A stretch of DNA of 28,749 bases, taken from a virus. Below the pieces are notes generated by a model. The model saw only the letters and a list, made by a program, of their open reading frames with translations. It did no database searches and was not told the DNA's origin. The position numbers were made by a program, and so were the translations under genes. Positions within the stretch are counted from its first letter, which is position 1. Every line of letters starts with the position of its first letter. The stretch covers positions 1-28,749 of IMG/VR virus record IMGVR_UViG_3300049426_000001; one strand, written 5' to 3'. Below are positions 17,319-28,749 of this stretch, piece by piece.

Positions 17319-19484
17319 TTAGGACAACGTTACGACGCCACGGAACGCTTTCGAGCCGTCCGCGTTCGTCAGCACCAGATAACCCTGCTGGCCGGCGGTC
17401 TTGGTCGAGAACACCGACAGACTCAACGCTCCGCCGCTGATCGCAGCAGTCGTGCCGCTGTCCGCCGCGACCGTCAGGCCATCGGCTGACGTTTGATCGA
17501 AGAAGGACCAGACCAAGCCCGTTGCGTCGGCCGCCGGCACCGTGCCCGCCAAGTCCTGGAACAGCGGCAGGCTGATGGTGCGAGCGGTGCGGGCGCCACG
17601 AATCGGCGCAACAAAGGCCTGGATCGCGTTGACGACCGCCGGCGCGATATCACCGATATTGGCATTGCCGAACGGATGCAGGCTGTCCGAAGACTTCGAC
17701 GTGACGAAGAAGCCGTTGGTGTCGACGAACAGGCAGCGAGTCGGCGCGGTGCAGGCCGCAATCGCCGCCTGCAGTTGTGCACTGCGGGCCGTGCCGTTGA
17801 ACGGGCGCAGCACCACGATGCGGGTGGTTTTTGGCGTCGCCGCAAGCAAGCCGTTCAACACCGTAGTCATCGCCGACGTAATGTCTGCCGAATCATTCGT
17901 GCCGATGTTGATGACGATCACGTCCGGCGCAACGGCGAACGAGCGGGCGACACCGGAATACAGGAAGTTGTAGGTGCCAGTCAGCGCGGGAACGCCACCC
18001 ACGCCGGTCTGCACCGCGCCTTGCGCGGAGAATCCGACAACGCCGAATTCAAAGCCCATCAGCCGAGCAACTTCCGGCGCCCATCCAAGGAACGCGTCGT
18101 GGCTGTTCAAGTCCGGCGTGCCGGCGATCTTCACCGTACGGTCGCCCTCGGTGATGCTGTCACCCAGGAACAACATCGAGCGCGGCAGCTTGGTCGGCAG
18201 CGTCAGCGTCTTGGTGGCGTCCAGTACGATGCCAACCAAAACGACCGCCGTTGCCTGCGTCGCCCAGCGCAATTGCGTTTCGGTCATCGACTTGAAGCGA
18301 ACTTCCAGGAGGCGCCCGCCGGCGTTCGCCCAGCCAGCAGTGTCGGACGGGATCGCCAACGCCACGCTGGCGGCGATATCGACGGTGGTCCAGGCGCCGT
18401 AGCCGTCGACGCGGTAGCTTATCTGAGGCAGCGGCGTCAGGATGCCGGTCATGTCGAATTGCAACGTGCACGAGGTGCCGCCGAAGATCGTGCGGAAGTA
18501 AGCGCCCGGGTTGATTGTTTTTGCGTTACCCGCGCTGACATTCCAATTCAACGGCGAAAACACCACCTTGGTCTGGTCGAAACCCGCCCCCGAAGCCGAT
18601 GCCGTGTAGGTGATGTTCGATGGATTCGCCAGGCTGCCGTCGTTATTTACTGCTATCGTTTTTGCGCCGGCGGTGCTCGCCGTGGCGGTGAAGGTCGCGG
18701 TAGGCGAAGCGCTGCTGATCGAGACGCTGGTAGGGGTGAATGTTACGCCGGCTACCGGGGTCGGCGTAACTACCACAGTTCCGGTTATAACGCCGTTGGC
18801 GCCCACCGAGAAGGCCGAAGAGGCCGCACCCACGGCGCCAGTGGTTGGGCCGGACAGGGTGACAGCGGTCGCCGCGACAGCACCGGAACTGTCCGTGCCG
18901 TTACCGTCGAGATGCCAAAGACCGATCAGATTGTTCTCGGTGCCAATATATGCGCTTGTTTGCGGCGTGAAGTCGGCCGTGTGCAACACGGCGCCCCACA
19001 GGGAAACTTCATCAACCTCGCCGCCCCAGGCATTCGCGCCGCCGCCGAAGATGTTGATGCCGATGACGCTTGCGCGGGATGGGGTGGCGGCCGCCATGGT
19101 GGTTGCGCTGGAACCCGCGAGGACGCCGTCGATATAGAACGTAGCCCCGGTGGTCGGGTCCATATTCAGTTCCAGATGGTGCCATGCGTTGTCGCAGACG
19201 TTGACGGTGGTGGCGACCGTTACCTCGTTGCCGCCAGTGCCATAGCGAACCTGCGCAAGACCGCCGGTGGCCTGCACGCCCATCCAGAACGTACCCACCG
19301 AACCGAGCGCGACGACGACCGCGCTTGGCGCAGTTGCTCGCTTCACCAAAAGGCTGGCGGTCCACGGTGCATTGTTAGCTGGCAGTAGCGCGATTGGGAC
19401 GGTACCGGAGCCAGCGTTCAGGCTCTGGCCGAATTTACCGGTGGCGTTGTAGCCTGCGCCCGTCATTGTTGCGTTAGTTGGCAT
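17319..19484 (-). CDS. LamG-like plus SGNH/GDSL hydrolase (esterase) of the portal-capsid cassette
   Basis: A 721-aa protein. Residues about 30-175 match a LamG/concanavalin-like fold (WHHLELNMDPTTGATFYIDG, then GGEVDEVSLW). Residues 230-300 look like a bacterial Ig-like repeat (TFTATASTAGAKTIAVNNDG). Residues 435-625 are an SGNH hydrolase: FLGDSIT with Ser443 (block I), NIGTND with Asn530 (block III), and DSLH with Asp600 and His603 (block V). These enzymes remove acetyl groups from sugars or lipids. Residues 636-721 are an unassigned beta-rich end. No signal peptide. AGGG lies 10 nt upstream of the ATG. Deacetylation of host surface polysaccharide by a virion-bound enzyme is a reasonable inference. 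Confidence 0.83.
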   Translation of the reverse strand: MPTNATMTGAGYNATGKFGQSLNAGSGTVPIALLPANNAPWTASLLVKRATAPSAVVVALGSVGTFWMGVQATGGLAQVRYGTGGNEVTVATTVNVCDNAWHHLELNMDPTTGATFYIDGVLAGSSATTMAAATPSRASVIGINIFGGGANAWGGEVDEVSLWGAVLHTADFTPQTSAYIGTENNLIGLWHLDGNGTDSSGAVAATAVTLSGPTTGAVGAASSAFSVGANGVITGTVVVTPTPVAGVTFTPTSVSISSASPTATFTATASTAGAKTIAVNNDGSLANPSNITYTASASGAGFDQTKVVFSPLNWNVSAGNAKTINPGAYFRTIFGGTSCTLQFDMTGILTPLPQISYRVDGYGAWTTVDIAASVALAIPSDTAGWANAGGRLLEVRFKSMTETQLRWATQATAVVLVGIVLDATKTLTLPTKLPRSMLFLGDSITEGDRTVKIAGTPDLNSHDAFLGWAPEVARLMGFEFGVVGFSAQGAVQTGVGGVPALTGTYNFLYSGVARSFAVAPDVIVINIGTNDSADITSAMTTVLNGLLAATPKTTRIVVLRPFNGTARSAQLQAAIAACTAPTRCLFVDTNGFFVTSKSSDSLHPFGNANIGDIAPAVVNAIQAFVAPIRGARTARTISLPLFQDLAGTVPAADATGLVWSFFDQTSADGLTVAADSGTTAAISGGALSLSVFSTKTAGQQGYLVLTNADGSKAFRGVVTLS

Positions 19485-25859: not shown

Positions 25860-26531
25860 TTAGAAAATAGATATCATGCCCTGATCGACGAACTGCCGGT
25901 CGAGACGTTGTAAAGCAAGCTTCTCCAACTCGCGCACACGTCCCTTCAAAAGTTTGAACGATCGCGCGTACGCCATATGATTGCCACCGAAAGACTGTGC
26001 TAAGCCTCGGAAGCTGATTTCAATCTTTAGGTGGTTCGCATATAGCTTGCCCAGCAGGCAGTCCAACGCGAACGGCGGAATCTTTGGAAACGATGGAGCA
26101 AACCAATCCGACAACCCTTTTATCGCTACGATTCGCTCGGCTGAAAATGCGAAGCGCCGGCGTGGCGGATTGCAGTGCGGCTGCCCATCATCGATGTCTT
26201 CGAATTCCACCTGTCCGAACTTCGCCTGCAGCGCCCAGGTCTCCGGCGCGGGAAGCCCACGGACCGCCTGTGTGACCCTGGCACACAGCGCACGCACCTC
26301 ACCCATCTCTAATCCACGGAAGTTGATCGCGCTCGATGGCCCGCCGCGCAGCTGGAGGAGCCAGTCGCGCTGATTGTCGGTCGTTAGATTCGTATCCTCC
26401 ATGATCCGAATCAAAGCCTTGCGCAGCGGCGCGTCCTGCTGTGCCTCTTGCGCGAGGATGAGGAAAGCGACATGCACGGCCTGGCCAGCGCTTTCAAATA
26501 TCCACTCTTTCGATACCGTTGTCTCTTGCAT
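25860..26531 (-). CDS. Probable late-gene regulator in the position of antiterminator Q
   Basis: A 223-aa protein from the ATG at 26531 (AGGAAAAACG just upstream; an upstream in-frame extension to 26600 has none). The C-terminal 60 residues, IEISFRGLAQSFGGNHMAYA then RSFKLLKGRVRELEKLALQR, look like a helical DNA- or RNAP-binding region. The N-terminal half is helical with the segment TTDNQRDWLLQLRGG. Sequence alone does not assign it to a Q family. Its place directly before a strong promoter with a terminator shortly after is the basis for the call. It follows the zinc-ribbon gene, with an 8-bp gap. Confidence 0.5.
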   Translation of the reverse strand: MQETTVSKEWIFESAGQAVHVAFLILAQEAQQDAPLRKALIRIMEDTNLTTDNQRDWLLQLRGGPSSAINFRGLEMGEVRALCARVTQAVRGLPAPETWALQAKFGQVEFEDIDDGQPHCNPPRRRFAFSAERIVAIKGLSDWFAPSFPKIPPFALDCLLGKLYANHLKIEISFRGLAQSFGGNHMAYARSFKLLKGRVRELEKLALQRLDRQFVDQGMISIF

Positions 26532-26539
26532 CGTTTTTC

Positions 26540-26716
26540 CTAGAAGATGACCACGTCCGCATCGGCGGCGATCGTGTACGGCTTGTCGCAATCGTCGCAA
26601 GTGTCATCGCGCCCGCGAGGGTCAATCATCCACCCGTCAACATCAGCGCCGCAGTGCGGGCATTCAAAGCAAGGCTTGGACACTGTAATTTTTTTGACCG
26701 TCTTTTTCTCACACAT
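26540..26716 (-). CDS. Small zinc-ribbon protein
   Basis: A 58-aa protein. The ATG at 26716 is chosen because GGGAGAA lies 5 nt before it; upstream in-frame starts at 26749 and 26797 have none. CPHC (Cys19/22) and CDDC (Cys40/43), with Cys16 nearby, form a four-cysteine zinc ribbon. Basic residues precede it. Typical of small phage DNA- or RNA-binding adaptors in the early region. Function unknown. Confidence 0.65.
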   Translation of the reverse strand: MCEKKTVKKITVSKPCFECPHCGADVDGWMIDPRGRDDTCDDCDKPYTIAADADVVIF

Positions 26717-26775
26717 AATTTCTCCCTGGTTCAGACTCGTTTTAGACATTTCATGCAGCGCTACTCCAACCACAA

Positions 26776-27009
26776 CTACTCCCCCACGATCACGCACTTG
26801 TTGCCCTTGCCGGTGAAACGCACGCGAACGCCTGGTCGACCCAGCGTTCCGATCTCCTGCCCATTCTCCGAGGCGTAGAACACGGGCTCGCCAGCCATCC
26901 CACGCCGAATGACATCGTGGATATTCTCGGCGCCGAACGCCTCCCGGAACTGATCAATCAGCGCGGCGGTCACCGGCATCGCCTCCCGCAGATCCAATTT
27001 CTTCGCCAT
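26776..27009 (-). CDS. Small phage protein of unknown function
   Basis: A 77-aa protein, MAKKLDLREAMPVTAALIDQ, then FREAFGAENIHDVIRRGMAG and ending FTGKGNKCVIVGE. A GAGGAG site lies 6 nt before the ATG. The first half is helical and the second half a small beta-hairpin. It lies between the repeat block and the zinc ribbon gene and is probably co-transcribed with it. I do not recognise the family. Confidence 0.6.
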   Translation of the reverse strand: MAKKLDLREAMPVTAALIDQFREAFGAENIHDVIRRGMAGEPVFYASENGQEIGTLGRPGVRVRFTGKGNKCVIVGE

Positions 27010-27315
27010 CCTTCACTCCTCGGTCAAGTTTCAATGGTTTTAGATGCTATTTATGACCAACCCGTCATACCCATCACATACCCATCACATCGCCAGCCCG
27101 CATAGACACTCACTTGTTATGGGTGTTATGGGTGTTATTACTACTTTCTACTTTCTGACAAAAAAAATATGCAAGCCGAAGCACAAACCCGGACGAACTT
27201 TGCAGCCTCACGCGCATGTATACGTGCGCGAGGAACCCGTAACACCCATCACACCCATAACAAGTGAGCATCCATGCGGGCCGGCGGTGTGATGGGTTGC
27301 TCCCGATGTTATGGG
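27010..27315. repeat. Non-coding block with eight ATGGGT repeats in nested inverted repeats (candidate origin)
   Basis: Two arms, 27069-27141 and 27239-27316, are inverted copies of each other with a few mismatches. Each arm holds two ACCCAT and two ATGGGT elements (starting at 27069, 27080, 27119, 27128; and 27244, 27253, 27292, 27311), usually 9-11 bp apart, within TGT(T/G)ATGGGTGT. The 97-bp centre has an AT-rich tract (ACTTTCTACTTTCTGACA then eight A) and a 20-bp near-palindrome. No gene is supported; the 69-aa ORF on the minus strand uses TTG and is made of repeats. It directly follows the helicase gene. Confidence 0.8.
27211..27230. repeat. 20-bp near-palindrome in the repeat block
   Basis: CGCGCATGTATACGTGCGCG is palindromic except for one mismatched pair (positions 7 and 14). 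It lies at the centre of the nested inverted repeat. Confidence 0.65.
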
Positions 27316-28749
27316 TCAACCCTCAACATTGACCACCGAACGACTGCGATAGCTCTGCAAATGCTTCTCGAACAACGACGACGCATCAGCCACCCAGTCG
27401 CCCAGCGTCTTGTCCTCTGGCTTCGCGCCGTGCAGGAACACGTTGCGCTGCTTGACGGACTCGCCGTACTCGTACTTGACGACACGCTTCTCCAAGTCCT
27501 CCCCGGCGTAGCGCAGCACGGTGGGCGTAAAGAGGGTCTGCGAGATGTACTTCGACTCGCCCGACTTCTCGCACCACACCTTGTAAGCGTCGTACAGCTG
27601 GGTGGCCCCGCACGTGATGAACGGCAGCGGCAAGAAGCCCCGGCTCCACTCGCGGTAGAAGCGTTCGGCCGGCGTCAGGCTCTTCTCGATCAGGTCGTCC
27701 TTGGCATCGGTGTAGAGCGGCTTCGTGTGCTCGTTGAACTCGCCCATTTCCAGGTCGTGCAGCAGGTAGTGGAAGTAGGCCTCGATCCCGCCGGCGTCGA
27801 TCTCTTCTGCCACCTGGACGTAGAAGTCGCGTGACAGCGCCGGCGGCGTCCAGATCACCAGGTAGCGGCGGTCCGTCTTATCCAGGGCGAGCGGCTGCAG
27901 CTCATTCGACAGGAACACGAAGTTCATGTGGTTGGCCTCGCCGTGTTCCGGCAGGCCTTTCGGGTTGATGATGATCATGTCGCCCGACACCAGGTACTTC
28001 AGCTTGCCCTTCATGTGCTTGAGCTCTGAGCGAGTCACCACCTCATCGGCGACCATGAACAGCTTCTTCGAGGCCCAGTCGTTGAACTGCGACTCCAGCT
28101 GCGCATTGCCGATCACGTAGCCGTACTCACCGTAGATTTTTTTGATGACCTTTTCGAAGAAGAAGTTCTTCCCGCTGCCCTCGTCGCCGTGCATGATGAT
28201 CGACGTCTCCATCTTGGCGCCACGGTTGCGCAGCGGATAGGCCAGCCAGCGCTCGATCCACGTCATCAAGTCTTCCTTGCCATCGCACAGGTGGTTCAGC
28301 AGGGTCTGGATCTGAAGGTGCGCACCGCGCTTCGGCTTCATCGCCCAGCCGTTGAACAGGTTGACGGTGGCCGTCGGACCGCTGGTGTCGGGAGAGCGGG
28401 TTTCCTGCGGATCAAAGACGATGTTCTTCTTCAGCACCCAGCGCCGGTTGTCGCCACCCCAAAAGCGCATGACGTCGTTGTTGGCCACGATCGTGCGCAT
28501 CGACGAGATTTTCATAAGCATGCGCTGGCTAACGTCCCACACCAGGTCCTCGCCGTAGACCAGGACGAAGTTGCGCAGCACGTATTCAACCTGGTCCCAA
28601 TGCTCGGGGCCGAACTCCTTCTTTGGCTTTTCCTTCGCCGGCTTACCCCCTCCCCCGGTGCCAGGCGCAGCGGACTCGTCTTCATCATCGTAAATGGGGT
28701 CTTCGGCCGGATCGACGGCGTAGCGCTTCTCCAGGGCGGCCACCAGTCG
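27316..28749 (-). CDS. Primase/helicase-like replication ATPase, 5' end missing
   Basis: The frame is open to the right edge, and the true start is probably outside the window. MHGDEGSGKN (about 55 nt into the ATPase core) is a Walker A, FMVADEV a Walker B and FVFLSNE with a following DRR the sensor and arginine finger of an SF3-like (DUF5906-type) phage helicase. These proteins often carry a primase domain at the missing N-terminus. A low-complexity Gly/Pro/Lys stretch near the start of the visible part suggests a linker between domains. It is the only replication enzyme seen and lies next to the candidate origin. Confidence 0.8.
   Translation of the reverse strand, partial: RLVAALEKRYAVDPAEDPIYDDEDESAAPGTGGGGKPAKEKPKKEFGPEHWDQVEYVLRNFVLVYGEDLVWDVSQRMLMKISSMRTIVANNDVMRFWGGDNRRWVLKKNIVFDPQETRSPDTSGPTATVNLFNGWAMKPKRGAHLQIQTLLNHLCDGKEDLMTWIERWLAYPLRNRGAKMETSIIMHGDEGSGKNFFFEKVIKKIYGEYGYVIGNAQLESQFNDWASKKLFMVADEVVTRSELKHMKGKLKYLVSGDMIIINPKGLPEHGEANHMNFVFLSNELQPLALDKTDRRYLVIWTPPALSRDFYVQVAEEIDAGGIEAYFHYLLHDLEMGEFNEHTKPLYTDAKDDLIEKSLTPAERFYREWSRGFLPLPFITCGATQLYDAYKVWCEKSGESKYISQTLFTPTVLRYAGEDLEKRVVKYEYGESVKQRNVFLHGAKPEDKTLGDWVADASSLFEKHLQSYRSRSVVNVEG

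Follow-up and report, generated by a model that had tools for sequence, protein, structure and literature searches.

A putative replication origin of 9-bp iterons directly 3' of the DUF5906 primase-helicase gene in a phage and its relatives

The stretch of DNA analyzed here, called the window throughout, comprises positions 1 to 28,749 of IMG/VR virus record IMGVR_UViG_3300049426_000001 (28,749 nucleotides) and carries, directly 3' of a gene for a DUF5906 primase-helicase, a block of 9-bp repeats that is very probably a phage replication origin, bound and unwound by the adjoining protein. An earlier note on this DNA had proposed that the block, together with the neighboring helicase gene, looks like a replication origin or a strong regulatory site, and comparison across related loci favors an origin tied to the helicase. 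The sequences point to this reading through the architecture of the block, its constant place 3' of the gene, its 9-bp pitch, the concerted change of its units, and a link to a predicted winged-helix domain of the helicase.

Results

The gene content of the window, encoded on the minus strand, includes a GpA-type large terminase, a lambda-type portal, and TerS-like and minor-tail-like genes. No tRNA was found in the window, and no known structured RNA was matched in Rfam at an E value of ≤1 between positions 26500 and 28749. A 721-aa structural-looking open reading frame (ORF) at 17319-19484 contains, as judged by eye, a GDSL/SGNH-hydrolase-like stretch, FLGDSITEG. The presumed initiator gene, of the DUF5906/SF3 primase-helicase type by Pfam, PHROG, and model comparison, occupies the right end (27316-28749, minus strand), where its 5' end is cut off by the contig end. 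Its product, P0001, matches Pfam DUF5906 (PF19263) with an E value of 5e-20 and 72.6 bits, above the gathering score of 27.6, and is assigned to DNA primase in PHROG; against the P4-family primase C terminus (TIGR01613), it reached 31.3 bits, compared with an NCBIfam cutoff of 108.7. In an AlphaFold2 model of the protein, residues 346 to 477 (codons at 27319-27714, minus strand) form a predicted C-terminal winged-helix domain, the presumed iteron reader, with helices at 382-396 and 404-418 and a two-stranded wing at 420-439. The mean pLDDT is 73 to 92 in 10-residue blocks across residues 341 to 470, and the ATPase core is modeled with low confidence. The solved folds nearest to the model are the C-terminal region of NrS-1 polymerase (6k9c; Z score of 22.3), which was also matched by sequence (E value of 1e-20), the SaPI5 primase-helicase (Z score of 15.8, with model residues 36 to 471 aligned), and other helicases of the NrS-1/SaPI5 kind. 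The N-terminal half of the DUF5906 helicases is of two kinds, with and without PriCT_2, and the same kind of element is found behind both. Several genomes of one host family also contain stand-alone ATPase-core homologues of about 245 aa that lack the winged helix and sit beside small ORFs (G002:C28:279311-279910, L149 976-1719; G121:C36:5496-6146, L151 637-1368); in G002, the stand-alone homologue is about 8 kb from the full-length gene.

The block starts at the stop codon of the DUF5906 gene (27316-27318), which is touched by the last ATGGGT (27311-27316), bearing out the reported helicase neighbor. All eight exact copies of ATGGGT listed previously were recovered, at 27069 and 27080 (minus strand), 27119 and 27128 (plus), 27244 and 27253 (minus), and 27292 and 27311 (plus). 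The hexamer occurs 14 times in the whole 28.7-kb window, compared with 9.1 copies expected from dinucleotide shuffles, and 8 of the 14 fall within 248 bp. When 9-mers were counted with one mismatch allowed, the 330-bp stretch contained 9 copies, whereas 30 shuffles gave 2.5 on average and never more than 3. A per-locus weight matrix resolves ten 9-bp units, all fitting TRTKAYGGG, two of which (27236-27244 and 27061-27069) are variants beyond the earlier count. Read in the direction of the helicase gene, cluster A comes first, with two backward units on the plus strand (A1, TGTTATGGG, 27307-27315; A2, TGTGATGGG, 27288-27296), followed by a spacer and by cluster B, with three tandem units on the minus strand (B1, TGTTATGGG, 27254-27262; B2, TGTGATGGG, 27245-27253; B3, TGTTACGGG, 27236-27244). 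Next come a 22-bp alternating purine-pyrimidine tract (27209-27230), the longest in the window (the next is 14 bp), and an AT-rich stretch with an A8 run (27133-27174), a candidate unwinding region between B and C. Cluster C has two backward units on the plus strand (C1, TGTTATGGG, 27124-27132; C2, TGTTATGGG, 27115-27123) and is separated by a spacer from cluster D, with three units on the minus strand (D1, TGTGATGGG, 27081-27089; D2, TGTGATGGG, 27070-27078; D3, TATGACGGG, 27061-27069). Thus, A faces B and C faces D, with the tract and the AT-rich stretch in between, and the units are spaced by 19 bp in A, 9 and 9 bp in B, 9 bp in C, and 11 and 9 bp in D. The two spacers contain a motif, CCCGCATGNAT (27090-27114 and 27263-27287), that by eye recurs in loci with quite different iterons and is inverted in the A-B spacers of L048, L096, and L130; it is perhaps the site of a second protein.

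To compare this element among relatives, we assembled loci from a helicase search (38 loci in viral contigs, 13 further viral contigs from 51 rows of which 38 were already counted, and 12 loci in named bacterial genomes, including Duganella, Janthinobacterium, Massilia, Herbaspirillum, and others), from the 392 genomes of one host's family (48 with a match; 30 loci returned and 27 used, three being copies, with weaker matches lacking loci left aside), and from phage records (nine of the closest among 413 with a match, plus Bordetella phage BPP-1). Removal of one entry that was too short (L020) and 17 near-duplicates from these 101 entries left 83 nonredundant loci, the window included, with helicase identities of about 28 to 87%. 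The stretches were inspected by eye, and each was scored by its commonest 9-mer, with one mismatch allowed, on both strands of the 330 bp from the stop codon, against 30 dinucleotide shuffles. The array directly 3' of the helicase stop codon beat all 30 shuffles in 76 of the 83 loci, which are related, so that these and the following counts are not independent. At least 5 copies were present in 69 of 83 elements; among the controls, 1 of 83 gene interiors and none of 82 stretches lying 600 bp farther downstream had as many. The shuffles were not exceeded in L037, L039, L051, L093, L123, L126, and L138, in several of which degenerate units are visible by eye. An array is absent 3' of the gene in L123, which has hardly any repeats, and in BPP-1 (L138), whose 3' region scores 3 repeats, within its shuffles, and which we therefore do not count as a member. 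The array is irregular in Moraxella phage Mcat7 (L142); for L123 and L142, loss of the array or a different origin is possible. On inspection, the window has an AT-rich region with a set of iterons on either side, and an AT minimum between B and C was found in only 31 of 47 relatives. In Stenotrophomonas phage S1 (L106 2454-2804), the iterons that follow the primase gene are covered by an annotated ORF, gp2, which is probably not a true gene.

The letters of the iterons vary widely among loci, and the 9-bp pitch is retained. Weight matrices gave units of the types TGTTGAGGG, TGTTGGCGG, and TGTGAACGG; further types are TGTGCAGGG in Moraxella phage Mcat4 and prophages, TGTGTTGGG in Pseudomonas LPPA56 and pAN, TGTGCGGGA in Stenotrophomonas S1, GTAGCGGCA in a Tepidimonas contig, and CAGACAGA in Halomonas H4907. 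Across 87 elements (L138 left out, and two plasmids entered with a longer stretch picked after their repeat positions were known), we counted 474 matches at a lag of 9 bp, 175 at 18 bp, 122 at 11 bp, 44 at 8 bp, and 19 at 10 bp. The single best lag is 9 bp in 44 of the 87 elements, and the rest peak at 18, 11, 12 (as in Halomonas H4907), 8, or 20 bp. Because a 9-bp pitch rotates successive units by about 50 degrees on 10.5-bp DNA, the units are not kept on one side of the helix, and the suggestion that a protein binds along one helix face is doubtful.

We asked which part of the helicase reads the iterons by building one unit matrix for each of the 47 loci with at least 60% identity, the window included. 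Position 5 of the unit is nearly uniform within a locus and is A or G between loci. On a tree of helicase residues 45 to 365, the unit class changes at least 7 times, and the AA class (L045; L048 and L081-L100) is forced into two separate places by the starred branches. We then correlated iteron distance with protein distance in 24-residue windows for 46 loci, holding the rest of the helicase constant; L039 was left out because its array was miscalled. Iterons were best predicted by residues 381 to 404 (partial rank correlation of 0.40; raw, 0.69), followed by residues 389 to 412 (partial, 0.32), and the N-terminal primase half gave a partial value of -0.09. The best-predicting residues fall in the predicted helix-turn-helix of the AlphaFold2 model. 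Under three null models, each simulated 300 times, the value for residues 381 to 404 was never reached there, and some window anywhere reached it in 45%, 16%, and 4% of simulations, so that the location of the peak carries the weight. Together with the model, this comparison suggests that the C-terminal winged helix is the presumed reader of the iterons. A single specificity residue (I/T at about position 401) was rejected, as it fits the clade of the window and L045 and fails for the L048/L081-L100 group.

If the block were instead a transcriptional control region, its iterons would serve as operators, and the operon downstream would be under the control of the helicase or of another phage protein. 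Autoregulation is common among the initiators of iteron plasmids, and the block sits between codirectional genes. Against this, a search for the sigma-70 consensus found no promoter- or terminator-like site at 26700-27500, the element stays while downstream genes vary, and an operator would not require ten units in facing clusters around an AT-rich region. We therefore consider regulation very unlikely as the function of the block. A small downstream ORF of 77 aa (26776-27009, minus strand) is a common but not constant neighbor, is without a match in many relatives where the element persists, and is not a likely iteron reader. Neither this ORF nor TerS holds up as a constant partner, since neighbors are not constant among relatives.

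The alternating tract is a further feature shared by most of the relatives. Of 83 elements, 76 have a run of at least 12 bp located 60 to 180 bp past the stop codon, compared with none of 83 gene interiors and none of 82 downstream stretches. Its start has a median distance of 97 bp behind the stop codon (quartiles of 89 and 99; 82 loci), and its letters vary between loci. A local shuffle test gave P values of <0.05 for 79 of 83 elements, versus 4 of 83 and 7 of 82 controls treated alike, although this test flatters the tract by being centered on the longest run. With so clean a control comparison, the tract is a new candidate origin element.

The tract and the dyad around it also bear on a different mode of initiation, at a stem-loop or single-strand site of the kind described for pRN1. 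The structure seen by the helicase would then be a hairpin or cruciform extruded from the DNA, with the repeats as no more than its arms. The earlier note described nested inverted repeats of over 70 bp around a 20-bp near-palindrome and suggested that the large dyad could form a cruciform. The near-palindrome was found at 27211-27230, inside the alternating run, and the inverted repeat is real, with arms at 27080-27137 and 27240-27297 that are 90% complementary and 102 nt apart; at 58 nt, they make the given length slightly generous. There is also precedent for a stem-loop 3' of an AEP-SF3-winged-helix gene in pRN1 and, by prediction, in Bordetella phage BIP-1 (available text of PMC4234260). 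Among relatives, however, only 2 of 76 tracts were palindromic at a P value of <0.05 beyond their purine-pyrimidine pattern, and complementarity between the spacers that would extend the dyad was no higher for spacers of one locus than for spacers taken from different loci (Wilcoxon P = 0.78; 46 loci). The extra stem is not maintained, and despite the strong dyad of the window, a cruciform or hairpin is rejected as the conserved signal of the family. Since the tract is not palindromic beyond its pattern, it is alternation, and not cruciform formation, that appears to be under selection. The units, moreover, are tandem repeats conserved as a pitch, and BPP-1 lacks such an array, so that the stem-loop and iteron arrangements look distinct. 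Hairpin-based initiation is accordingly a highly improbable account of the element.

That the repeats are a packaging (cos/pac) site for the small terminase subunit is scarcely credible: the window does contain the large terminase of the GpA type and, downstream and about 2.5 kb away, a TerS-like gene, but this TerS was matched in only 9 of 82 other loci, in varying places (with many flanks short and divergent TerS proteins liable to be missed), Halomonas H4907 and Pseudomonas LPPA56 have other genes behind the element, and small plasmids carry arrays with no annotated terminase. A dispersed host repeat, which the earlier note had named as speaking against an origin, is rejected for three host genomes: two that carry a close prophage contain the paired-unit pattern a single time each, and the third lacks it.

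Nine plasmid records contain a distant DUF5906 homologue, and we analyzed the five of 7.6 to 9.8 kb. In four of these (from Roseomonas, Vibrio vulnificus [pMP1], Proteus, and Citrobacter), the repeat window that scores highest in the entire record lies at most 350 bp 3' of the DUF5906 gene; in the Methylobacterium plasmid, the 3' window scores 6, compared with 7 elsewhere. The alternating tract is absent from all five, with a longest run of 11, and their PLSDB entries name no replicon type. These arrays are suggestive, fitting an initiator-origin pair without proving one.

Discussion

The putative origin described here most resembles those of the SaPI/PICI type (pri-rep-ori), in which, according to the accessible parts of PMC6092414 and PMC7581432, the origin lies immediately 3' of the gene for a helicase initiator. 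SaPI Rep reads iterons directly 3' of its own gene through its C-terminal domain (PMC7581432, in part), and PICI origins, one of which was tested for plasmid maintenance, have two iteron sets around an AT-rich region immediately 3' of rep (PMC6092414, in part). Unlike these elements, the window is from a phage that itself encodes a terminase, a portal, and tail proteins and does not class as a satellite; its block has four clusters at a fixed 9-bp pitch, and its alternating tract has no mention in the available text of either source. From the sequences compared, the origin most likely functions in the SaPI/PICI manner, its carriers being phages equipped with virion genes of their own, and relative to the available SaPI/PICI text, the 9-bp pitch with drifting letters and the conserved alternating tract are apparently new.

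Other systems are less alike. NrS-1 polymerase provides the nearest solved helicase region (6k9c), but it recognizes an 8-nt sequence that occurs twice near the center of the genome (PMC7102993, excerpts) and binds it via a domain of its N-terminal part (PMC8718748, excerpts), and the sections available of the two papers describe no iteron array 3' of the gene. Recognition of this 8-nt kind was set aside, as its layout is different (accessible text of PMC7102993). As far as PMC4234260 could be consulted, pRN1 ORF904 is a single protein with primase, SF3 helicase, and winged-helix parts and has a required stem-loop origin 3' of its gene, and phage BIP-1 is predicted to have a large stem-loop origin in the same place; the protein type and the position of the origin are shared with the window, whereas a stem-loop without iterons is not. 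SCCmec Cch2, a D5-type helicase, binds in vitro to direct repeats that lie downstream of the gene encoding it, which is a likeness, but has three 5-nt iterons and does not belong to a phage (available portion of PMC7581432). A literature search covering titles, the beginnings of abstracts, and few subscription papers returned no description of the element in these phages, and the available text of the Halomonas H4907 paper (PMC10580944) contains none of the terms "origin of replication," "replication origin," and "repeats."

For binding, melting, two rings, and a bidirectional start, we infer the following course. The DUF5906 primase-helicase would bind the 9-bp iterons through its C-terminal winged helix, and the four clusters, with A facing B and C facing D, would seat two helicase assemblies flanking the tract and the AT-rich stretch. 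These two elements would then melt, the helicase rings would unwind outward, the fused primase half would prime, and host or phage proteins would complete the forks. A bolder and tentative proposal, which we hold to be possible but somewhat doubtful, is that these origins keep two constants that are physical and not defined by sequence: a 9-bp pitch set by the spacing of neighboring winged helices and a Z-DNA-prone or weakly stacked alternating tract, fixed about 97 bp behind the stop codon, that is the actual element for melting or ring loading. The iteron letters and the recognition helix would then make up an orthogonal code that drifts and sorts prophages with a common helicase frame into groups of replication compatibility.

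If the origin reading is true, a large and mostly unannotated group of temperate phages would have a predictable origin just behind the DUF5906 gene, and the prediction would also cover small plasmids with distant homologues. A layout said to be unique to phage satellites would be extended to ordinary phages. The related loci would supply a ready-made set of DNA sites, each paired with the helix that reads it, and would make initiator specificity directly testable, a specificity that perhaps decides which prophages can share a cell.
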